A DNA stretch of 15,349 bases from NCBI GenBank assembly GCA_027577415.1, contig JANBQS010000561.1, positions 1 to 15,349 on the forward strand, read 5' to 3'. The notes under the pieces are model-generated. The model was not told the DNA's origin. It did no database searches and saw only the letters and a list, made by a program, of their open reading frames with translations. Source of the DNA: Coemansia sp. RSA 922 (Eukaryota; Kickxellomycota; Kickxellomycetes; Kickxellales; Kickxellaceae). The stretch's first letter is position 1, and the number at the start of each line of letters is the position of its first letter. Of this stretch, positions 906 through 13,634 are shown in pieces. The translations under genes and the position numbers were made by a program.

Positions 906-1154
906 CTATGGGCGTGGCTCCTTCCAGTTGCCAACATGGTCCACTTGACGGCGGCCGAACTTATCCTCCCAATCTCCTACATGATCTACTTGACGCCGTC
1001 CAAACTTGTCTTCCCAATCGCCAACATGGTCTACTTGACGGCGTGCATGAGTATCTTTCCAGTTGCTGACATGGTCGACCTGAGGAGCGGGAGCGGGAGT
1101 GGCAGAGGCAATGGCTGCAAAAACAAGAGCAACAAGAGTAAGCGATGTCTTCAT
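906..1154 (-). CDS. Secreted tandem-repeat peptide precursor (Kex2-processed, pheromone-like layout)
   Basis: An 82-residue intronless ORF. Residues 1-18 are a clean signal peptide (MKT, a hydrophobic core, then IASA). Residues 19-24 are TPAPAP, a run of X-Pro/X-Ala dipeptides suited to a Ste13-like dipeptidyl peptidase. Residues 25-82 are four units of a 13-residue peptide: QVDHVSNWKDTHA, QVDHVGDWEDKFG (twice) and QVDHVGNWKEPRP. The first three are each followed by Arg-Arg, a Kex2/furin-type site. Every released peptide would start with Gln, which can cyclise to pyroglutamate, and would contain an invariant Trp. No cysteines are present, which argues against a disulfide-rich effector. A TATA box lies about 95 bases upstream. 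The layout is that of alpha-factor precursors and of repeat precursors for ribosomal cyclic peptides. The role is unknown: mating or signalling peptide, RiPP substrate and secreted effector are all possible. Confidence 0.85.
   Translation of the reverse strand: MKTSLTLVALVFAAIASATPAPAPQVDHVSNWKDTHARRQVDHVGDWEDKFGRRQVDHVGDWEDKFGRRQVDHVGNWKEPRP
909..1082 (-). repeat. Four tandem 45-base peptide-coding units
   Basis: Units lie at 1082-1038, 1037-993, 992-948 and 947-909 (the last is 39 bases because it lacks the Arg-Arg codons). Units 2 and 3 encode identical 15 residues but differ at eight third-codon positions. Unit 1 has diverged at its C-terminal half (NWKDTHA) and unit 4 ends NWKEPRP. QVDHV and the Trp are invariant in all four. 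Confidence 0.9.
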
Positions 1155-1525
1155 TGTAAATGGAAATTAAGAAATGGAAAAAATGTGTGTTGTTGGTAGG
1201 GGCGAGTGTTCTGTAAGGAATCTGGACTTAACAGCGGACGGCATGTCATTTTATAGCCTTGAGGGTATGCCCCTCTGGCTAGTTTACATTTTTACAAACA
1301 TGTAGAGAGCATATTCAGGATGACACTAGCACCAGTGCTTGTATATTGAACGCGACCGCATTCCGAATTGTGATATAAGAGACCCTTTTGCAAGGTATGT
1401 GCAACAATAAATGCTGCTGCACTTGCTTTCCTGCTTTAGCAATCGGTTGTCAATTGAAGAAGCGCCTTAGAGCGCCCGCCATCCTATCCAATCAAGTGTC
1501 ACTGACCAGTCTGCGCGCCAATCAA
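1155..1525. other. Promoter region of the peptide precursor, grading into possible element debris
   Basis: About 370 bases with no credible gene. The part nearest 1155 is the upstream region of the peptide precursor, including the TATA box at 1249-1255. From about 1340 to 1525, short minus-strand stretches could be the 3' end of the decayed tyrosine recombinase, but they are interrupted by stops and I could not align them convincingly. CCAAT motifs occur on the plus strand near 1490 and 1520. Confidence 0.4.
1249..1255 (-). promoter_or_regulatory. TATA box of the repeat-peptide precursor gene
   Basis: The minus strand reads TATAAAA here, about 95 bases upstream of the ATG at 1154. Spacing and sequence fit a TATA-driven fungal promoter, which is common for strongly regulated secreted-protein genes. 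Confidence 0.6.
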
Positions 1526-1867: not shown

Positions 1868-2932
1868 CTAATAGGTCGCTTCGTCGTGTACTGTGCTGCC
1901 GCTGTTGTAAGATACTAGTCGTTTGCCTTTTACCGGTGATGGTGGTGGGTTTCCTTCGAATATCGACCAAACTAACCGCACCGACGTTTTTATATTTGCC
2001 CTCATGCCTGTTGACGTTGAGACCTCCAAAAGAAAGGAGGCTAAATGCGCCTCAGATCGTTTGACAGGGTCCAACCCCCGTTCAATACACCAAGCCACCC
2101 ATCTTTTCCACGCATGGTTATAACTACCGTTGGTACTTTTACTCAGACGGTTAAAGTAAGCTGTGACATCAGACTCGGATTGACCTTGGCGCAAAAGGGC
2201 TTGCCGGACGATTTCCTCTCGACTTTGCGCCATCGGTATTTCAGGACAATGTCTGCGTTTTTTGGTCACACGGTCGCCTGTTGGTAAAGAGATTGGTGCT
2301 GTAAGTGGCGACTCTGCTATTAGACTATCGTGTGTAGTCAAACTTGAGCTATTCGGATCTATATCCACGGACTCGGACTCCGAATCCGATACTAGATCCA
2401 TAGTGCTCATAGTACCAAGATAATCGACATTTTCTTTGACTGCTCTGGCCGAAGCAACTCTGTGCTTGTCGCGCGTGTCGATGAGTGTAGCACAAAGTGT
2501 AGCTAGCAAGTCCACTACTATCTCCACTTGCTCATTGTTGGAATTCTGCCTGTTTAGTGTCTTTTGGAGAATCTCCACTCCGTAGGCCGCCATTGTCGCC
2601 GCTTGACTGTAGGCCTCGTCAACGACAAAGTCGCTCTTCATTCCTACGGCACTAGGACCGAGAGGAGCAAAGTCCGATTGTCCGGGCGGGTACTGCTCGT
2701 GGAGATCTGCCCATGTCGATTTGAAGGCGCGAACGCCTTGCTTAATTGTGTTTAGGCGTGAATCGGAAAGTGGCTCAACGCTGTCGTCGTCGTCGCTGCG
2801 GCTGTGTTTTGGTCTAACGGTCTCATTTTCAATGTCCATCGCTTGGTGTTCTGTGTCAGCGGGGCTTTCTGGTGGTGTTTGAGTGACTAGCTGTGAGGCT
2901 TCCAAGCGGGCAAGCAAAAGTGGCTGGATCAT
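1868..2932 (-). CDS. Truncated tyrosine recombinase with gag-like N-terminal part
   Basis: 354 residues from an ATG at 2932. Residues about 20-60 are acidic and polar. Residues about 60-180 are predicted mostly helical and resemble the gag-like part of DIRS elements (a helical block containing YSQAATMAAYGVEILQKTL and later VVDLLATLCATLIDTRDKH). A Ser/Asp-rich linker and a basic KKRRH patch (possible nuclear localisation) follow. Residues about 239-327 are the SAM-like core-binding domain of tyrosine recombinases, with the typical YNHAWKRWVAWCIERGLDP signature and a following helix pair ending VRLVWSIFEG. The catalytic domain (Arg, HxxR and Tyr) is absent, since the frame ends 27 residues later. 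The protein could bind DNA but could not recombine it. Whether the open frame is a recent decay product or has been retained cannot be told from one copy. Confidence 0.6.
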   Translation of the reverse strand: MIQPLLLARLEASQLVTQTPPESPADTEHQAMDIENETVRPKHSRSDDDDSVEPLSDSRLNTIKQGVRAFKSTWADLHEQYPPGQSDFAPLGPSAVGMKSDFVVDEAYSQAATMAAYGVEILQKTLNRQNSNNEQVEIVVDLLATLCATLIDTRDKHRVASARAVKENVDYLGTMSTMDLVSDSESESVDIDPNSSSLTTHDSLIAESPLTAPISLPTGDRVTKKRRHCPEIPMAQSREEIVRQALLRQGQSESDVTAYFNRLSKSTNGSYNHAWKRWVAWCIERGLDPVKRSEAHLASFLLEVSTSTGMRANIKTSVRLVWSIFEGNPPPSPVKGKRLVSYNSGSTVHDEATY

Positions 2933-3244
2933 TACGAGTTGGTCAATACAGCTGCAGAGAGTATAGAAAAATGATCAAAACTTGTCAAGAATTTGGAACG
3001 AGTAAAAAAAAAAAATTCAACGAATTTTTTTGTGTCATGCTTCATATTTATTCGCGAGTGGGGTAACTTTAAATATATGGGCAACACAGGCAATGACGTA
3101 AATTGTTTCTGGTTGTCTTTTGATATGCGATATATTAAAAATAAAAGTCATGTGAGTGAATGTCTGAGCGCTGTGAGTGATTCTATAGCTGTGACGATTA
3201 TTATAAAAGTATTAGAAAAGCGAATAGTGTGAGTTTATTTATCT
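2933..3244. other. AT-rich spacer between recombinase remnant and Ted1-like gene
   Basis: About 310 bases, AT-rich, with a poly-A run near 3005-3017 (plus strand). It is upstream of the recombinase frame and downstream of the Ted1-like gene. The plus-strand open frame here (2993-3232) has no coding character. A small 13-base hairpin-capable palindrome (ATCTTT, A, AAAGAT) lies just before the stop of the Ted1-like gene. Nothing else is seen. Confidence 0.5.
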
Positions 3245-4877
3245 TTAAAAGATATAAAAGTAAAGTAAACACGCACCGTATGTGGGAAGCGCGACAACAA
3301 CTATGCTCTGCATCGCCAGTACTACTCGGACAATAAGCCTAGTCTGGTTGATCTGCCATATTCCCGGCATACTAGCCGGCAATGGCAGCTCCTCGATTCC
3401 AGGTCCTGGCGTTGGAGAGGGAGACATTGACGGCGACAATTGCAAGCGCACATAGCCGATCTCAGAAGCCAAGTCGTCTTCACTAGGCTTACACACCGGG
3501 TGCCAGCTACGCGAGCCTCTATAGCAATAGACAATGACAATGACCAGTGAGAGGACAAAACTCGCACCATAGACCTTGTAGATACCCAGCTGGTACGGTA
3601 AGAAGCAGTTCTTCACTACGTGAGCGGCAGGCAACTTTCGCCCTGGATATAGCGTCAATAGACCGTAGCTGGCGATGGGTACGCCGCTGGCCCAGCCAAA
3701 GGCACCAATTGTATACTCGATAGCCCTTTTGACGACTCCGCCTTCTGTGGGTACTGGATGGGAGACAGTGCATGTGTCGTGGTCATCACCGCTGAATATC
3801 GCTGTTGGTTTGATTGAGTCGAGCAGATATGATGTTGTGTTTTGGAATAATTGATCCCGAAACTGGTACCCGCGGCGATTCAGTAAGCTGCCTCCTGGTG
3901 CCTGTCGCAGCGGCCCGCAGTCTGTCCCATCAGGCCGCCACAGCGGAACATGCGAGAAAAGTAGTCTCGGCTTCCCTGCCGTCTCGTTTGCTAGCCGTTC
4001 AACCAAATGACGACTGGCGGCGCTCACAGCTGGCGTGTCGCTCTCCAGAGTCAGTGAATCTAAGAGTATGATCTGATGCCCGCCAATGTTTAACACCTGG
4101 TTAGTGGGACCAACGTATTTGTGATACCGATCCAGCGCATGCTCGACCACGGTATTGCCAATACCGATATCATGGTTGCCAGCCATATCGTAAACAGGTA
4201 CGGTGTGTGGCGACCTGTTTCGGAATATCGACTTGTAGCGCGCGTGTTCCTCTAGCCATTGGTCGTCTTCCCACTCACGTCCACCGTCAAACAAGTCGCC
4301 CAAGAATATGATGGCTTCGGGATGTCGAATCGTTTGCAACACGTTGTAGGACTTTCTCAGGTAAATGTCCGTATAGAATTCTACTACCCGGAGAAGCGCT
4401 CCAGTTTGGTCGTAGGAGTAGTGGTCGACTATCTGCGGGTCAGCTACGAGAGCCACGTGTACTGGGGCCACGCCTGCATCGTCATAGGCCTACAATGAAT
4501 GACAAAAGAAACAACATGAAAAGCAGCAGGTCGAGTCAGTGATTGCACGTGGGCATTTTTCTTGCAAAAAGAAACAATGTCGGAGCACGGATGAAGCAGG
4601 GAATAGTCTACAATTGGCCTTTCGTGCACGGAAAAGGACGCCCGACGCTCCTTATTCAAGAGACATGCGAAAAGGAAAAAAAAATAGAGAGATTGGAGTA
4701 CGTTACCTTGAGAGAGGACCATTTACAGCTTGAAACGTGTCCGTAGTACAAACCTATCTCGCAAACTAGAAGCAACACGACCCAATAAAAGCGTAGAAAT
4801 CGCACCACTAGCAAACGATTGTATCGCATTATTGGCGCCTCAGTAAGATTGGTTAAAGTTATTGTTGGAGAGGTCAT
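3245..4877 (-). CDS. Ted1/Cdc1/MPPE1-like GPI-anchor-remodelling metallophosphoesterase (2 exons)
   Basis: Join of 4877-4707 and 4489-3245 gives 471 residues. Exon 1 carries a short N-terminal tail and a membrane anchor (about residues 30-46), then the conserved Cys-Lys-Trp before the catalytic domain. The intron (4706-4490, 217 bases) begins GTAACG, has CTGAC near its end, and closes TTGTAG; joining is in phase 0. Exon 2 holds the calcineurin-like metal-binding motifs: ADPQ (73-76), GDLFD (121-125), GNHDIG (161-166), FSHVPLW and FSGDDHD, in the order and form of fungal Ted1. NCFLPYQLGIY and two C-terminal membrane segments follow, the last at 441-471. The family acts in the ER, removing ethanolamine phosphate from a GPI mannose so that GPI proteins can be sorted into export vesicles. 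ATG 4877 is chosen because it precedes the anchor directly; upstream codons are low-complexity. Ted1 versus Cdc1 (which mannose) is not resolved. Confidence 0.88.
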
Positions 4878-5432: not shown

Positions 5433-7148
5433 TTAGCAAACAGTAGGTGGGCTGTCAAGTGCGCGGCGGAGAATCTTGCCTGATGCGCTCTTGGGAATTG
5501 AGCTGACGAGCACATACCCTCCACGTAGTTGCTTATAATATGCAACCTGTCGATTCATCCACTTGACAATAGTCTTGGCAGCCTCATCCGCATGCACTGC
5601 AGTTGATGCAACATCGGACAAAACGAGATACGCTCTTGGCACTTCTGTCTGGCGAAGCGGATCAAACACGCCTGTCACGGCACAATCTCTGACCTGCGGA
5701 TGCTGTAACAAGATACCCTCGAGTTCGGCAGGCGCTACTTGAAAGCCATTAAATTTAATGAGCTCCTTTTTGCGACCAGTGACAAAGACAAATCGCCTCG
5801 AATCTACAAACCCGATATCGCCCGTGTGCAAAAATCCATCTCTGTCAATTATATGGTTGGTCGCCTCCTTGTTGTTCAAGTACTCGAGCATAATGTTTGG
5901 CCCTCGGAAACATAACTCGCCGACCTTGCCCTCGCCCAATGCTCGCCCATTGTCGTCAATTACTTTGACTTGGATGTTTGGCAGCAGTTGGCCTGATGAC
6001 CCGACACGACTGACTTTGGGCATGTTTAGCGATAGTCCGGGACTAGTTTCGGTTAGTCCATATCCTTGCATAACACGAACGCCGCTGTATGTCTGCTCAA
6101 GGCTACGTGCGGTATCGGGTCCCAATGGTGCGGCGCCCGAAATAATCCACTGGAGACTGGACAGATCGTATATTGCTGCTGTATCGGATAATTTAACCAT
6201 GGCGTTGAGAATCGGCGGTACCAGCATAGTATCGGTTACACGATGTGCTTCGACTAATTCAAAGAACCGTACAAGATCAAATGTTTTCATAACGACTAGT
6301 CTCGATCCCTGTATTGGCAAGCTGTGAGCCAGAATCAGTCCAAAGCAGTGGAAAATGGGCAGCACGGCTAGTGTCGTGCGCTCATACTGCTTGGGTGGTG
6401 TCATCGTGCGTATTGCATAGCCGATCTGCTCGATATTAGCAACAATGTTGTAGTGACTCAGTACTACGCCCTTGGGTAGTCCCGTCGTACCGCTAGAGTA
6501 GCATATGAATGCCGGAGTCGTGCGCAAGTGATTAATATCTGATAGTAATGCGCGAGGGAATTGCTGCTGGCTTAGCACGTCAAAGATCGACCGTACCAGT
6601 TGTTTATCACCATCTCCAATCATTGGCGAATCTGCTGCTCTGTCAATACACAGTATGTTGGAAAGAGTTTGGTCCAGTCCATGAGCCGACGGTTTGGCCA
6701 GTCTTTCAATGGCATCGGTAATGACGGGTATGCCAGCTCGAGTAGTAATTACGAATCGCGCGTTAGAATCAGATAGTTGGTGTGCTAATTCACCGGCTGT
6801 ATACGCTGGATTAACCAAAGTGCACGATGCGCCCAGCATTAGTACTGCCATTGTCACTGCCAGGTAGTATATGGTATTGGGTAGCACTATGGCAACTCTA
6901 TCGCCCTGGCGTACTCCGACTGAGTGATAAAGACCCGAGGCAAGCTGGGTTGTCAGTGTCTCCAACCCGTCTAGCGTCAAAGCCAGCGACGGCATGTCGC
7001 TGTCAACAAACAGTGGGCGTGGAGGGGAATCATCCGAACTGGCGAGTGCTGTCCTCTGACGCATGCAACTGAAAAAGTGTGTCGGCAGATCATGAAGCGG
7101 CACATCGACATTGGGTAGCCTGGACTTTAGCACTGTGCGAGTCATCAT
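5433..7148 (-). CDS. 4-coumarate-CoA-ligase-like acyl-CoA synthetase, copy 1
   Basis: 571 residues from ATG 7148 (MMTRTVL), chosen because it aligns with the start of the neighbouring paralogue; in-frame codons upstream are AT-rich and low-complexity. This is an ANL-superfamily adenylating enzyme: it activates a carboxylic acid with ATP and transfers it to CoA. Motifs in order: phosphate-binding YSSGTTGLPKG (217-227), GYGLTETSP (362-370), GELCFRG, LHTGD with the ribose-binding Asp at 444, the hinge GRKKELIKFNGFQVAPAELE, and the catalytic Lys in SASGKILRR (558). All are intact, so it should be active. The C-terminus ends PPTVC, not a peroxisomal PTS1 tripeptide, so a cytosolic site is more likely unless another signal exists. 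The substrate (phenylpropanoid, medium-chain or aryl acid) cannot be read from sequence alone. Confidence 0.92.
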   Translation of the reverse strand: MMTRTVLKSRLPNVDVPLHDLPTHFFSCMRQRTALASSDDSPPRPLFVDSDMPSLALTLDGLETLTTQLASGLYHSVGVRQGDRVAIVLPNTIYYLAVTMAVLMLGASCTLVNPAYTAGELAHQLSDSNARFVITTRAGIPVITDAIERLAKPSAHGLDQTLSNILCIDRAADSPMIGDGDKQLVRSIFDVLSQQQFPRALLSDINHLRTTPAFICYSSGTTGLPKGVVLSHYNIVANIEQIGYAIRTMTPPKQYERTTLAVLPIFHCFGLILAHSLPIQGSRLVVMKTFDLVRFFELVEAHRVTDTMLVPPILNAMVKLSDTAAIYDLSSLQWIISGAAPLGPDTARSLEQTYSGVRVMQGYGLTETSPGLSLNMPKVSRVGSSGQLLPNIQVKVIDDNGRALGEGKVGELCFRGPNIMLEYLNNKEATNHIIDRDGFLHTGDIGFVDSRRFVFVTGRKKELIKFNGFQVAPAELEGILLQHPQVRDCAVTGVFDPLRQTEVPRAYLVLSDVASTAVHADEAAKTIVKWMNRQVAYYKQLRGGYVLVSSIPKSASGKILRRALDSPPTVC

Positions 7149-7391
7149 AAATAGCAAATAATAATTAAAAAAAAATAATAGAGAAGGAAGAAAAAAGATA
7201 GTATATTTTTTCAGTTGGTTTTTTTTTGCTTGAGTGTAGATTGTGTCAAGCGTGGCTGAATAGTAAACACTTTTTTGCGGCGTGCATTTGATAACCGGGA
7301 AAGAAAAAAAGTGGCGTCTACGAGAAAAAAGACAATGAAAAAGGGAAATTATATACATGTATGTTAAAAACTTGTATATTATTGAATGTGG

Positions 7392-9008
7392 TTACTCCAA
7401 AAGGCGGCGTAATATTTTGCCCGAAGTGTTGCGAGGAATAGAATTGACCAAGACATATCCACCGCGTAGCTGCTTATAATATGCTACTTGGTTATTGACC
7501 CACTCAACAACCCGCTGAGCGGCAGCAGCTGGATCATTTTGATCTGGGTCAGTCAGCACCAGATACGCCTTTGGCACTTCGGTTTGACGCTGTAAATCGA
7601 ATACGCCCTTGACGGCACAGTCTCTGACTTCAAGATGTTGTAGTATAATTCCCTCGAGTTCGGCGGGCGCAACTTGAAAGCCATTATACTTTATCAGTTC
7701 CTTTTTACGATCAGTAACGTAAATATGTTGTTGGTCATCTATATAACCGACATCGCCAGTATGCAAATAGCCGTCAACATCTATCGTCTCTTTTGTCGCC
7801 TCGTCGTTGTTCAAGTATCCGAGCATGATATTGGGTCCGCGGAAGCACAGCTCGCCAATTTCGTTACTGTCTAGCGTACGTCCAATATCGTCAACTACTT
7901 TGGCTTCAATACTGGGTAAAATACGGCCGACTGACCTGACATTAGAGGCTGTAGGCGGGTTGAGCGAGACAGCTGGACTGGTCTCGGTTAGCCCGTACCC
8001 TTGCAGAATAGATAACTCGGGTAAGAGCGACTCGAGCGTAGCAATCGACTCTGAGCTTAGCGGCGCAGCACCGACCACTACCCAGCGTAGTGACTGTAGG
8101 CAGTCAGTAAGAGTCTTGGGCGGCAGCTTCGTCAGGGCATTGATAATTGGCGGGACCAACATAGTCTCTGTGACCTGATGTTGTTTGACCAAGCTGAGGA
8201 ACTGGGTCATATCGAATTTGCGCGATATCACTGTAGTAACGCCAGAAATGGGCATGACAAAGCAGAGAAATGTCAGACCAAAACTGTGAAACATAGGCAG
8301 CACAGCAATGCTTGTCGGGCGATAGGTGGAGGTCTGGTGTACGGCGGTGATTTGCAAAATGTTGGCGATAATATTGCCGTGACTCAGTTTAACGCCCTTT
8401 GGTAGCCCCGTAGTGCCACTCGAGTACGGGATAAATGCTGGCGCTTGATGAGCGGCATCTGGGCGAGGGAAATCGCGGTTGCTACGCAAGTCAAAGATAG
8501 AGCGAGTATCGGGAAGCTTGTTCATAGAGTCGCTGTCAGCCAACAAGATAGGTACATTGGGTTCAGCAGCCTCGGTGACCAAAGGATGAAGAGCTGTAAC
8601 GGTAATAACGAGGCGCGCTTGTGAGTCACTCAGCTGGTGCGATAGCTCGCGAGAAGTATAGGCTGGATTGGCCAGCGTGCAAGTAGCGCCCAGAGTCAGT
8701 ACAGCGAGGGCGATAGGCAAGTAATAAACAGAGTTGGGCATTACTATAGCCACAACATGGCCAGGGCGAACTCCAGCATTGTGGTACAGTCCAGCAGCCA
8801 ATCTATTAGTCAGAGCCTCAGCGGTGTTCAGCGTGAGAGTGGCCGACGGATCATCGCCGTCAATATACAGCGGGCGTAGAGCTTGTGAGCCACTAGAGTC
8901 AGTAAAGGCAGGATTTTGGCGGACTCGGCTGAAGAAAAACGCGGGAAGATCCGAGTGTTTAGGGGCGACAATGTCGGGCAGAGATGACTTTATTCCAGAG
9001 TAAACCAT
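7392..9008 (-). CDS. 4-coumarate-CoA-ligase-like acyl-CoA synthetase, copy 2
   Basis: 538 residues from ATG 9008 (MVYSGIKSSLPD). It is a clear paralogue of the ligase just downstream on the same strand, 243 bases away, with long shared stretches in the C-terminal third (PAELEG, QHxxVRDCAV, RQTEVPxAYLVL, NxQVAYYKQLRGGYVLV). Motifs: YSSGTTGLPKG (195-205), GYGLTETSP with Tyr338, GELCFRGPNIMLGYLNN, LHTGD, DRKKELIKYNGFQVAPAELE and the catalytic Lys in TSGKILRR (531). It lacks about 20 residues present in copy 1 before the phosphate loop. It ends RRLLE, again without PTS1. The hinge differs from copy 1 (TDRKKE against TGRKKE). Its promoter is shared divergently with the WD40 gene; a TATATATA lies 87 bases upstream. 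Confidence 0.92.
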   Translation of the reverse strand: MVYSGIKSSLPDIVAPKHSDLPAFFFSRVRQNPAFTDSSGSQALRPLYIDGDDPSATLTLNTAEALTNRLAAGLYHNAGVRPGHVVAIVMPNSVYYLPIALAVLTLGATCTLANPAYTSRELSHQLSDSQARLVITVTALHPLVTEAAEPNVPILLADSDSMNKLPDTRSIFDLRSNRDFPRPDAAHQAPAFIPYSSGTTGLPKGVKLSHGNIIANILQITAVHQTSTYRPTSIAVLPMFHSFGLTFLCFVMPISGVTTVISRKFDMTQFLSLVKQHQVTETMLVPPIINALTKLPPKTLTDCLQSLRWVVVGAAPLSSESIATLESLLPELSILQGYGLTETSPAVSLNPPTASNVRSVGRILPSIEAKVVDDIGRTLDSNEIGELCFRGPNIMLGYLNNDEATKETIDVDGYLHTGDVGYIDDQQHIYVTDRKKELIKYNGFQVAPAELEGIILQHLEVRDCAVKGVFDLQRQTEVPKAYLVLTDPDQNDPAAAAQRVVEWVNNQVAYYKQLRGGYVLVNSIPRNTSGKILRRLLE

Positions 9009-9345: not shown

Positions 9346-12291
9346 ATGATGGACATTTACGCAGAGACATGGCGACCGAGTAGCAGCACGAGCAATATGA
9401 GTGGCACCAGGTCGCGCAGACAAAGCACACGCGGAGTAGCGACAGCGAGTCCTACAACAGCCGTTGCAGGCTGCAGCAGCGCGCACTGGCGGCAGGCATA
9501 CGTAGCCAGCGATACAGGAGATACTAGCGGAGTGCAGTCGACGTCGCTGGGATTGCCCGACGAGTCGCGGTTCACAACGAGCCTGGCCATGAGCGAGGAC
9601 CAGCCGCTGCTGGCAGTAGGGTCGGGCAGCCACGAGACAAACATGTTCTTTGTGCAGAGCCTCGACGACCAGCTCGACGTCAAGGCATCGTTTGCCTCAA
9701 AGTTTCCCATCTACGCACTCGCACTGCACGGCAACCTTCTGCTGGCTGGCACCGACCGCAGCACCAGCGTACTGTACCGCGTCGACCGTGCTCGGCTGCT
9801 CGGCTACTCTGAAGCTGACGCAGGGTCGGAAGACGGGCCCCTCGTGCGCTGCGTGGGCACTTTTAAGAGCAAGGCTGCGCGCAGTGTCGACGTTGCTGCG
9901 CCGGGCAGCCATGCGCCCACGAGGCGCGTCTCGTGCGTAGACTTTGCTGGCGACGCGTTTCTGGCCTGCGTCGGCGGCGTCGTCAGCGTGTGGGACGCAG
10001 CGCGCAGTCAGCAGCAGCAGCCGCAGCCGCTGAGAGTCGAGCGCGTGTCGGCCCAGCCGTTGACGCGGGCCGCTTGGAGCCCGCACGGCGGAGCAACGCT
10101 GGTGGCTGCGTCTGGCGTCGACGGCGGAGCGGCGATAGTCGACCTGCGCCGGCGGGGACGCGCTGTGGCGTGGCGTGCAGCGACGGCGGCCGGCGCCAAT
10201 GATGCGGCGTGGTCGCCCCTGGTGCCGCACTGGCTGGCGACGGCGGGCGAGGACGGCGCTGTGCGAGTATGGGACCTGCGCTACGCCACGACGACGCCCG
10301 CCATGACCGTGCGGCATGCGACCAGCGCCGGCGTGCCTCGGCGGGTGGCGTGGAGCCCTACGCACGTCGACCTGATCTCGGTCGGAACCAGCGACCGCGC
10401 CTGGCGCCTGCACTCACTGCGCGACACTCTTTCGCCCGTGGTGGCTGACTGCCGTGCTGCTGATGACGTAGGCGCTGTTGTGTCAGCGTGCGCCAAGGGC
10501 AGCACCTTTTACACGCTCAGCGCCTGTGGCGACCTGTTTGCCCACCGCCTGACGCCACAAGCACTGAGCCTCGCAGCAGTGCATCGCTATGGCGATAGTG
10601 GGGATTCGGTCCTGAGCCGAGCCGAGTCTGCTGTTTACGCTCGCGATATCCGAGGCGCTGCCGACGCCGTTTTGAGCCAGCCGCTCAGCAGCGACGCTGC
10701 CACGACGCGTGCGCTGTGCGACTTGTTTGCAGCGAAGCCACGGCTGGCAGCTGCGGCTGCCGAGTGGACCCTGCCAACGACGTTGCCTCGCGCATCATTG
10801 ACCGACTCTGCCGCTACTGCCGCCGACTCCGAGTCGACCGACGCGGCGGCGCGGCGTGCGATGGCTGGCGACCTGCAGCGGCTTGGCTATGGCCTGCCGC
10901 CAGACTTCCCGCTCGACGCAACTGCGGCGCGGCACCCGGCGGTGCTGCAGGCGCTTGAGCGGCTGAACACCGCCAGCTTGCGGTCGGCGCTGGACGATCT
11001 CGTCGCACAGTCCGAAGGGTCCGAAGATGCTGGCAGTGGCAGCAGCCCGCCGTGGAAGGCGGCGGCCGATCGCGCGCAGCAAATTGTGCAGTGTGTGACA
11101 GCAGACCCGACGCTGCTGGATGCGCGGCTGCTGCGTGCTGTGGTCAAGCTGGTGCTGCCCAACGACTGCATTGCCGGGCTGACACTGGGCCTGGGCATTT
11201 GCCAGGCCTACCTTGCCCACCAGCGCCGAGGCCCAGCGTCGGCTGTTTCTTGCGGAGACTTGGACGGCCTTGTCCACGTGCTTTTGTTCCCTACAGTGTT
11301 TGACGCCGACTCTGCCAATGACAGCGCAATGGCTGCAGGTACGACGACGCGTGCCGTAGGCGCTCCCGACGCGCATGCTGTTCGAGAGCGTATTCGCGAG
11401 TGCCTCGACGCCTGCCCAGACGTAGTGTTTGAGATGGTACGTTTAGAAATCAGCATTCAGGACGCTGTGCTGAAGGGCGGCGAGCAGGCCCATGTCGCCG
11501 AAGCCATTGTGCAGACCATGAAGGAGCATGCCCAGACTGTTGCCACTTTGCTCGATAGTCGTCAGCCTCAGTTGCCACCTGTGCAGATCCACGCGCTGTA
11601 TCCAACGACGACTACTATCTCGGCTAGTGCCGTTCGCTTGTACCTGAACTCGTTGGTGCCGATGCGTGCCTATGACGAGTACTTGGTCAACTCGCAGTGG
11701 TGGCGAGTAGCTCCACTATCTCATGCATCTACAGGCGAGGGTCGTGTAGTTGGAAGTGACATGGGATGGCCCTCGTCATATCCATTGGCGCGGATGATTA
11801 ACCGCCAGACCGCTACACTAGTAGTACCACGCTTTGCTCGTCAGCTCGATGTAGTGCGAGCCGCAGTGGCCAAAGAGCCGCTGAGCTTGGAGCCGCGTTT
11901 ATACCGGGACACGTTGCTCAAAATTGCGCGTATCAACATACTGATGCGCTGCGACCAGGCTTTAACATTTACCATACCTCCTCCTTCTTCCCAATCCGCT
12001 GATGGAACTGTCGCTGGGCCAAAGTCAGTTACTACTAGTATATCTGAATCTCTGCTTGTCGATGCATTTGACGAGATAGGTAATGCCTTTCTTATGCTTC
12101 TCGAGGCCCTGGCTCGTCATGCTAGCCACCGTGATGCACACAAGCGTGCTGCTGCAGAGGCATTACCCCTTCACGAGTCCCTTGCCAAGCTTGTTGAACA
12201 TCAGTCGGTTTCAATAACTGCAGGACGTAAACCACATGTGGCTTCTGTAACAAAGTACTTGCGCAAACTCGAGCACTATGCTAACGCATAA
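9346..12291 (+). CDS. Large WD40-repeat protein with helical C-terminal half, unrecognised
   Basis: 981 residues, single exon, from ATG 9346 (a second ATG follows immediately). The first ~70 residues are Ser/Thr/Arg-rich and disordered. About residues 75-410 form a beta propeller: WSPHGG at 244, WSPLVPHWLATAGEDGAVRVWDLRY at 289-313 and VAWSPTHVDLISVGTSD at 335 are good WD40 blades. From about 410 the protein is predicted alpha-helical, with Ala/Leu-rich stretches, the segment DLQRLGYGLPPDFPL near 505, and a well-ordered C-terminal third. Propeller followed by helical solenoid is the plan of coat, tethering and SEA/GATOR-type scaffolds, but I see no C-terminal RING or zinc ribbon that would suggest Sea4/Mio, and it does not read as Sec31. 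The 5' two-thirds are strongly GC-rich while the last ~700 bases are not. TAA at 12289-12291 overlaps a TAATAATAAA stretch that supplies AATAAA. Confidence 0.85.
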   Translation: MMDIYAETWRPSSSTSNMSGTRSRRQSTRGVATASPTTAVAGCSSAHWRQAYVASDTGDTSGVQSTSLGLPDESRFTTSLAMSEDQPLLAVGSGSHETNMFFVQSLDDQLDVKASFASKFPIYALALHGNLLLAGTDRSTSVLYRVDRARLLGYSEADAGSEDGPLVRCVGTFKSKAARSVDVAAPGSHAPTRRVSCVDFAGDAFLACVGGVVSVWDAARSQQQQPQPLRVERVSAQPLTRAAWSPHGGATLVAASGVDGGAAIVDLRRRGRAVAWRAATAAGANDAAWSPLVPHWLATAGEDGAVRVWDLRYATTTPAMTVRHATSAGVPRRVAWSPTHVDLISVGTSDRAWRLHSLRDTLSPVVADCRAADDVGAVVSACAKGSTFYTLSACGDLFAHRLTPQALSLAAVHRYGDSGDSVLSRAESAVYARDIRGAADAVLSQPLSSDAATTRALCDLFAAKPRLAAAAAEWTLPTTLPRASLTDSAATAADSESTDAAARRAMAGDLQRLGYGLPPDFPLDATAARHPAVLQALERLNTASLRSALDDLVAQSEGSEDAGSGSSPPWKAAADRAQQIVQCVTADPTLLDARLLRAVVKLVLPNDCIAGLTLGLGICQAYLAHQRRGPASAVSCGDLDGLVHVLLFPTVFDADSANDSAMAAGTTTRAVGAPDAHAVRERIRECLDACPDVVFEMVRLEISIQDAVLKGGEQAHVAEAIVQTMKEHAQTVATLLDSRQPQLPPVQIHALYPTTTTISASAVRLYLNSLVPMRAYDEYLVNSQWWRVAPLSHASTGEGRVVGSDMGWPSSYPLARMINRQTATLVVPRFARQLDVVRAAVAKEPLSLEPRLYRDTLLKIARINILMRCDQALTFTIPPPSSQSADGTVAGPKSVTTSISESLLVDAFDEIGNAFLMLLEALARHASHRDAHKRAAAEALPLHESLAKLVEHQSVSITAGRKPHVASVTKYLRKLEHYANA

Positions 12292-12926: not shown

Positions 12927-13634
12927 ATGCGTACTTTTGCTCTGCTTAGCCTGCTTGCTGCCTGCGCCGTCGGTGCTCCCATGCTAGTTCTGCGTCAGCT
13001 TCCCGGAGACTCTGTCAATGGTCCCACTGCATTGAGCCATCCCAACATTAACAACGGAGAGTCGGTCGAGGGCTCTGTCGAAGATACCACGTCGCTTAAC
13101 GGTGCTGTTATCAGTAACGCTATGGGTAACGATATAACCAAGATTACTCAGAACACTAACTGGCATGATAACACGATCCTCAACCCCAACATCAACACCG
13201 CTTCCAACACTCAGGGTGACGTTGTCGTCGGTAACGGTAACCAAGTATTCCCTGCTTTCGGCCGTGGCAGCAGTGTTGTCTTTAGGCGTCAGGCGCCCGG
13301 TCATATGGTCAACGGTCCTACGGCTCTCAGTAACCCAACGGTCAATAACGGTGCGTCTACTCAGGGCTCGCTCAAGGCTGATACTAGTGCTAATGGTGCT
13401 ACTATGGTTAACCCTGTCGGAAACGAATTTAGCCAGGTCAACTCTAACCAAGAGGTCGCTGATAACGTCTTTGAGAACCCTAACTGGAATCAAATCTCGG
13501 GTAATAACGGACCTGCGCTTGCTGGTAACAACAACATCTTTGTGCCCGTGACTAACGAGGCTGGTGCTATTCAGATTGATAACGGAGATCTTTTGAATGC
13601 AGCGCTGATGGCTGGTACTGCAGGTAAATGGTAG
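12927..13634 (+). CDS. Secreted Asn/Gly-rich protein with two 86-residue repeats
   Basis: 235 residues, no intron. Residues 1-17 are a signal peptide (MRTFALLSLLAACAVGA). Two repeats then align without a gap: residues 24-109 and 122-207, both opening Q-x-PG-x-x-VNGPTALS-x-P and sharing NNG, GS, TS, NGA, DN, NPN and P at the end (about 39 of 86 identical by hand count). Repeat 1 follows a single Arg; repeat 2 follows FRR, a Kex2-type site, so the precursor may be cut into two domains each beginning with Gln. There are no Cys in the mature part. The regular N-P and N-G spacing suggests a beta-solenoid or beta-roll, perhaps a wall or spore-surface component. The family is not one I can name. AATAAA at 13714-13719 follows the stop. 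A long antisense frame here is a codon-bias artefact. Confidence 0.85.
   Translation: MRTFALLSLLAACAVGAPMLVLRQLPGDSVNGPTALSHPNINNGESVEGSVEDTTSLNGAVISNAMGNDITKITQNTNWHDNTILNPNINTASNTQGDVVVGNGNQVFPAFGRGSSVVFRRQAPGHMVNGPTALSNPTVNNGASTQGSLKADTSANGATMVNPVGNEFSQVNSNQEVADNVFENPNWNQISGNNGPALAGNNNIFVPVTNEAGAIQIDNGDLLNAALMAGTAGKW
12996..13547 (+). repeat. Two gapless protein-level repeats inside the secreted protein
   Basis: Codons for residues 24-109 (12996-13253) and 122-207 (13290-13547). They are equal in length and alignable end to end, linked by a 12-residue segment with the Arg-Arg site. An internal duplication followed by substantial divergence. Confidence 0.8.

Follow-up and report, generated by a model that had tools for sequence, protein, structure and literature searches.

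A family of predicted Kex2-processed repeat proteins maintained by selection at three loci in Coemansia, with a possible pheromone role

What does a short, repetitive open reading frame (ORF) on a contig of the fungus Coemansia sp. RSA 922 encode? The ORF lies on contig C561, which is the window of this study, meaning the whole stretch of 15,349 nucleotides that was analyzed. The first-pass annotation described a signal-peptide-like start, a TPAPAP stretch and four 13-residue peptides, three of them followed by Arg-Arg, and this description is exact for the 82-codon ORF on the minus strand (Table 1). It also placed the DNA in an early-diverging fungus, in agreement with the NCBI classification of Coemansia under Kickxellomycota, Kickxellales. 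The parts of the precursor follow one another in the order MKTSLTLVALVFAAIASATPAPAP, QVDHVSNWKDTHA-RR, QVDHVGDWEDKFG-RR, QVDHVGDWEDKFG-RR and QVDHVGNWKEPRP-stop, and each 13-mer consists of QVDHV[GS][DN]W plus five residues. The stop codon comes right after residue 13 of copy 4, which therefore lacks a dibasic tail. Residues 3 to 18 are hydrophobic (mean Kyte-Doolittle value of 2.07), and the signal peptide was judged by composition only.

Table 1. Parts of the precursor gene and its promoter elements in the window
Feature	Position	Strand	Details and basis
TATAAAA-N10-TCCGCTG	1232..1255	minus	TATA 101 nt upstream of ATG; arrangement common to the other five genes, with 2 nt of variation in spacing
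Precursor ORF, 82 aa (82 codons)	906..1154	minus	ATG at 1154 to TAG at 906; paralogues, sister contigs, homologues
Predicted signal peptide, MKTSLTLVALVFAAIASA	1101..1154	minus	Codons 1-18; putative cleavage between ASA and T; composition and hydrophobicity
TPAPAP, three X-Pro dipeptides before copy 1 (Ste13-type spacer)	1083..1100	minus	Sequence
Copy 1, QVDHVSNWKDTHA	1044..1082	minus	Sequence
Arg-Arg, Kex2-type site 1	1038..1043	minus	Sequence
Copy 2, QVDHVGDWEDKFG	999..1037	minus	Sequence
Arg-Arg, Kex2-type site 2	993..998	minus	Sequence
Copy 3, QVDHVGDWEDKFG	954..992	minus	Peptide identical to copy 2, codons partly different
Arg-Arg, Kex2-type site 3	948..953	minus	Sequence
Copy 4, QVDHVGNWKEPRP	909..947	minus	Stop codon directly after; without Arg-Arg

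The 82-codon ORF is a real gene. Its copies use different synonymous codons, indicating that the repeats are not a product of chance. When the aligned 13-mers of the window ORF are set beside those of its paralogue on contig C90, 32 of 156 nucleotides differ, falling at codon positions 1, 2 and 3 in the numbers 4, 3 and 25 and changing 6 of 52 residues. None of 10,000 simulations, in which an equal number of changes was placed uniformly at random in the aligned 13-mers, reached so few residue changes (simulated mean, 22.3). An antisense ORF at 936-1199 on the plus strand was rejected, since 25 of the 32 differences sit at third positions of the minus frame. Genome-wide, a degenerate DNA pattern encoding Q-V-D-H-V-x-(D/N)-W matches 20 times, always within the six family members, and its reversed control never; the shorter QVDHV pattern matches 30 times, 21 times in family members and 9 times in unrelated frames elsewhere, against 5 matches for its control.

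How many such genes does this genome carry? In the assembly (20.4 Mb, 960 contigs), the precursor gave 7 matches on six contigs, which can be grouped by their flanking DNA into three loci of two contigs each: C561/C356 (92.8% identity across 5.8 kb), C85/C90 (93.2% across 9.9 kb) and C776/C927 (93.4% across 5.3 kb and 90.8% across 1.6 kb). Paired contigs also occur at a dipeptidyl peptidase gene described below (97.5% identity, compared to 90.8 to 93.4% at the precursor loci), and the pairs may represent alleles or diverged haplotypes, the genome of a hybrid, or an assembly that mixes two strains. Four of the six genes, those on C561, C85, C90 and C776, are undamaged, and all four share the same architecture. 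In the gene on C356, most of copy 1 is lost to a 38-nt deletion, which also puts what follows out of frame; the repeats beyond the deletion show two synonymous changes relative to the window and no others. In the gene on C927, the Trp codon of the last copy is TGA, and the penultimate copy has drifted (EDRLG). The damage in both genes may be assembly error; with two of six genes affected, it argues against indispensability.

The surroundings of the loci are partly shared. A 354-aa ORF at 1868-2932 (minus strand), located upstream of the precursor, is one of a family that matches the genome 74 times, and it has no significant Pfam match; we take it to be a mobile-element remnant with a recombinase-like N-terminal domain. 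The C776/C927 locus has a relative of this ORF on the same side, and positions 976-2235 of the window align to C927 with 67% identity over 1.3 kb, so that the C561 and C776/C927 loci look like an old segmental duplication. On C90, an AA9-family (lytic polysaccharide monooxygenase-like) gene at 2779-3510 (minus strand) lies about 1.4 kb from the precursor.

Beyond this genome, a search for the repeat precursor in relatives, as proposed in the first-pass annotation, returned two homologues from a protein database of 5.8 billion entries, P0001 (79 aa) and P0002 (65 aa, Coemansia sp. RSA 2681). A second search with the alignment of six precursors (1,195 candidates scored) returned the same two; these searches were restricted to proteins with exact five-residue words in common. 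Both homologues have the architecture of the undamaged Coemansia genes, except that the first copy of P0001 is short (QVDNVGNWKIPR) and its Arg-Arg is gone. In the alignment, the spacer of the other genes is TPAPAP or a shorter Ala/Pro-rich stretch, and that of P0002 contains one dipeptide (AL) that is neither X-P nor X-A, assuming cleavage at the corresponding position. No protein identical to the window ORF was among the matches of the five-residue-word search. No precursor protein of Coemansia sp. RSA 2531 was among them either, though a WD-repeat protein of that strain is 98% identical to the one encoded at 9346-12291 of the window. For this WD-repeat protein, 27 of 32 matches (7,999 candidates scored), including the best 13, are from Coemansia, and four matches are from other genera (Martensiomyces, Kickxella, Dipsacomyces and Furculomyces). 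A gene as small as the precursor is probably often missed by gene callers, so missing matches in other Coemansia do not mean absence.

What has been kept in these repeats during evolution? We compared the three loci in register, with copies aligned by position from the C terminus and one contig per locus (C561, C90 and C776). In the octapeptide core, 3 of 80 residues changed between loci (pN of 0.015, pS of 0.67 and pN/pS of 0.023), and in the five-residue tail, 14 of 50 changed (pN of 0.137, pS of 0.96 and pN/pS of 0.143). Core and tail are both constrained, the core about 6-fold more by pN/pS, and the precursor is under purifying selection. Among the 22 copies of six genes (the four undamaged genes plus P0001 and P0002), Q1, D3, V5 and W8 are kept in all and H4 in 20. 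In each of these six genes the tail of the penultimate copy is EDKFG and the last copy has exactly 13 residues, the latter fitting the release of 13-mers. Matching of copies by position across loci was equaled by few alternatives (counting the observed arrangement itself, 2 of 144 were as good when judged by amino acids and 3 of 144 when judged by nucleotides), indicating that copies correspond by position and that the distinct peptides themselves have been kept. These alignments suggest that the precursor holds several different peptides whose order is fixed, rather than one homogenized unit. Between C776 and C927 the constraint is weaker, with pN/pS of 0.23 for the repeats and 0.63 for the leader. 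This weaker constraint and the two damaged genes would suit a structural, repellent-like surface peptide or a decaying relic without function. Against both stand the core pN/pS of 0.023 between loci and the common promoter elements described below, which mean long-term selection, and the peptides are short and polar; we consider a structural or relic nature quite improbable.

The six genes share a promoter arrangement. A TATA box is found 89 to 114 nt upstream of the ATG in all of them, and the heptamer TCCGCTG begins 17 to 19 nt past the TATA start, again in six of six; in C927 there are two TATA matches that overlap, and in C776 there is another TATA further upstream. In the last 250 nt before the ATG at the three loci, these two elements are the sole common 7-mers whose positions lie within 30 nt of one another, and 500 mononucleotide shuffles of the same regions gave a mean of 0.006 common 7-mers and a maximum of 1. 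Genome-wide (20.4 Mb), the pattern TATAWA-N9-14-TCCGCTG, which was defined after inspecting the precursor genes, occurs at nine places, and six of them are the precursor genes. It has 10 matches, including the two overlapping ones in C927, compared to 14 for the reversed control pattern, so as such it is neither rarer nor more common than expected by chance, and the weight lies in the six-of-six coincidence with the precursor genes and not in rarity. The remaining places are C61 and C72, a pair with 95.2% identity in which the C61 match falls inside a 602-aa ORF, and C294, where the match lies about 37 to 61 nt inside a 520-aa ORF (called from the first ATG). The upstream DNA of C561 and C776 is still alignable, with about 70% identity, and for that of C85/C90 BLAST found nothing further upstream than the final tens of bases ahead of the ATG. 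Since the C561 and C776 upstream regions can still be aligned, the promoter evidence represents two independent backgrounds, not three. A sigma-70 promoter scan was disregarded because the host is a fungus.

How would such a precursor be processed? Each required cut has a candidate enzyme in the genome, and these enzymes probably act on the precursor. The kexin candidate is a 651-aa ORF with S8 and P domains, the one P-domain match of the genome; kexin entries rank first among its PDB matches (E = 9.2e-145). The candidate for a Ste13-kind dipeptidyl peptidase is a 948-aa ORF with DPPIV_N and Peptidase_S9 domains, located on the 97.5% identical contig pair mentioned above; a third, weaker DPPIV_N match lies on C311. 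There are 10 genome matches to S10 carboxypeptidases, a family-level assignment that does not imply Kex1 identity. The Kex2/Ste13-style precursor proposed in the first-pass annotation thus finds support in both the layout and the candidate processing enzymes of the same genome. A separate 235-aa, secreted-looking protein, encoded at 12927-13634 on the plus strand, has two related halves (RQLPGDSVNGPTALSHPNINNG and RRQAPGHMVNGPTALSNPTVNNG) with Arg-Arg before the second and no Pfam match, and it is possibly another kexin-cut protein.

In the processing that we propose, the precursor chain would enter the secretory pathway, signal peptidase would cut past ASA, kexin would cleave C-terminal to every Arg-Arg, and a Kex1-like S10 carboxypeptidase would trim the basic residues. 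Since signal peptidase would not be expected to cleave behind a Pro, a dipeptidyl peptidase would be required for the first copy alone, where a Ste13-type enzyme would take off TP-AP-AP; this would explain the presence of the spacer there. All products would then begin with Gln, probably cyclizing to pyroglutamate, and the output would be a mix of linear 13-mers with a near-invariant N-terminal QVDHV[GS][DN]W and copy-specific five-residue tails. The calculated [M+H]+ values of the pyroglutamyl forms are 1519.6924 for copy 1, 1514.6546 for copies 2 and 3 and 1544.7604 for copy 4, and those of the unmodified peptides are larger by 17.0265. We regard the processing and secretion part of this account as highly probable. 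Taken as a whole, the explanation that we prefer, a KEX2-processed repeat protein (KEP) releasing linear, probably pyroglutamylated self-signaling peptides, is reasonably probable.

Could the peptides be modified further? A RiPP substrate was the other option named in the first-pass annotation, and in the ustiloxin sense this appears unlikely. Dikaritin RiPPs (ustiloxin, phomopsin) do come from a kexin-cut repeat precursor, as predicted in Coemansia, and DUF3328 (UstYa) genes lie near 22% of KEPs in Umemura's survey (PMC7329392). Against a cyclized or modified product of this type, the table of the same survey has no DUF3328 neighbor for any of 185 Zoopagomycota KEPs, the UstYa/DUF3328 model (PF11807) had no match in the present genome with the control silent as well, and Tyr is absent from all 22 copies of the six genes. 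Nine ORFs of the window were scanned, and no UstYa, methyltransferase or P450 family was found. We consider a dikaritin-type product very improbable. The window does hold two adjacent AMP-binding (acyl-CoA ligase-like) enzyme genes at 5433-9008 (minus strand), probably tandem duplicates, which could be counted in favor of a modified product and are without any tie to the peptide. C-terminal amidation was also considered, as Gly precedes Arg-Arg in copies 2 and 3 and Gly-Arg-Arg could be turned into a Phe-amide, giving a neuropeptide-like product. It was rejected as scarcely credible, because Gly is not present in every copy (copy 1 ends in Ala, and the last copies end in Pro or Ser at the stop) and the Cu2_monooxygen model (PF01082) for PHM had no genome match, with the control silent.

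Another intriguing question is what linear 13-mers of this kind would do. We propose that they are secreted as a diffusible signal, most likely acting on the producer fungus or its kin. The acidic to neutral charge of the predicted 13-mers (net charge of -3 to 0 in 15 copies of the four undamaged genes), the frozen core and the shared promoter speak for a ligand of a conserved self receptor rather than for a peptide acting on membranes or foreign targets. This step is the weakest of the account, and the probability of the self-signaling part is evenly balanced. The same charge, and a core nearly frozen despite heavily changed synonymous sites, speak against antimicrobial, deterrent or interaction factors directed at other organisms, since most antimicrobial peptides are not acidic to neutral and peptides directed at foreign targets tend to diversify. 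The damaged genes point to dispensability and in this respect fit such factors. Targets in other organisms have been proposed for mushroom KEPs by Vogt et al., and among the characterized KEP peptides are virulence factors as well as modulators of mutualism (PMC9769878). For the Coemansia peptides we consider other-organism targets unlikely.

A strict sexual pheromone, equivalent to alpha-factor and read by a GPCR of the mating partner, would be a special case of the self-signaling explanation, so that our probabilities for the two overlap and those for all readings are not meant to add up to unity. A sexual pheromone would be consistent with the Kex2/Ste13-style layout, the candidate processing enzymes of this genome, the strongly conserved core and the TATA-bearing promoter common to the genes. 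According to Le Marquer et al. (PMC6339444), little is known of the pheromones of early-diverging fungi outside Mucoromycotina and Blastocladiomycota. On the other side, the loci are present on both contigs of each pair, with nothing mating-type-specific seen. Models for STE2 (PF02116) and STE3 (PF02076) had no match in the genome, a weak argument since STE2 had none in 14 control genomes either and the control genomes were silent for STE3 too. We judge the sexual reading doubtful.

Overall, a KEP family at three Coemansia loci is real and under selection, and a pheromone reading is possible. In its boldest form, which we offer as a speculation, the family would be the first peptide pheromone or density signal of Kickxellomycota, with pGlu-VDHV-G-(D/N)-W as the active octapeptide, a receptor other than STE2, variable tails by which each precursor would yield several related ligands in a set order, and three loci under one promoter arrangement. 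These ideas are directly testable, since the products of this conserved peptide family can be predicted exactly and candidate processing enzymes are encoded in the same Coemansia genome.

How does this family compare to known peptide precursors? With the KEPs of Le Marquer et al. 2019, Umemura 2020 and Vogt et al. 2022, the Coemansia precursor has in common a predicted secretion signal, three or more repeats with a length of 8 aa or more, and dibasic separators. Umemura's rule specifies three or more tandem repeats of 8 to 100 aa between dibasic sites (PMC7329392), and the window precursor has four 13-mers and three RR sites. Zoopagomycota, in which Kickxellomycotina are placed by PMC10386755, had the highest KEP density in Umemura's survey, with 185 in 16 strains (PMC7329392); hence, a KEP in Coemansia is unsurprising as such. 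Mating genetics in that phylum are described as not well understood (PMC10386755), and Rhizophagus was the one early-diverging fungus with yeast-like Ste13 signatures in the set of Le Marquer et al. (PMC6339444). The Coemansia peptide sequence shows no relationship to any family named in the text sections of the KEP surveys that were compared. In the literature searched, the string QVDHV occurred in a single, unrelated tuberculosis context. In the literature on pheromones, Kex2, Ste2 and secreted peptides of Coemansia, Kickxellales and Zoopagomycota, we found no published description of the family, which supplementary KEP tables may list.

Ascomycete alpha-type precursors, such as MFalpha1 of S. 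cerevisiae, share with the Coemansia precursor a repeated peptide, dibasic sites and X-P/X-A dipeptides, and they have a signal peptide, as is predicted for Coemansia; the yeast alpha-factor peptide has 13 residues, as predicted here. The first-pass annotation had claimed exactly this layout. Its outline holds, and the word "exactly" does not: dipeptides occur before copy 1 only, copies 2 to 4 start with Gln right after RR, there is no long pro-region, RR is used throughout, the peptide is unrelated, and STE2 was not found (control silent). The mating-factor Pfam models MF_alpha and MF_alpha_N, names taken from PMC7329392, had no match in any of five proteins scanned at E up to 10, a setting at which HMMER filters discard most hits weaker than about 0.1. 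Hits to ACC_epsilon, DUF4148 and other families fell below curated cut-offs and were disregarded.

Mushroom KEPs provide the other comparison. Agaricomycete KEP peptides are short and carry a D-W motif (C-terminal -AADW or XSDW, the latter named by Le Marquer, PMC6339444), and the corresponding Coemansia motif is (G/S)(D/N)W. The Trp is C-terminal in the mushroom peptides, whereas five residues follow it in Coemansia, and at this level of sequence the likeness may be chance. Pleurotus precursors carry Ste13-type dipeptides, and a mushroom KEP precursor expressed in P. pastoris showed Kex2 and Ste13-type processing (Vogt et al., PMC9769878). The KEP peptides detected in mushrooms in the same study are linear, with an N-terminal Gln that is often pyroglutamate, as is predicted for the peptides of Coemansia.
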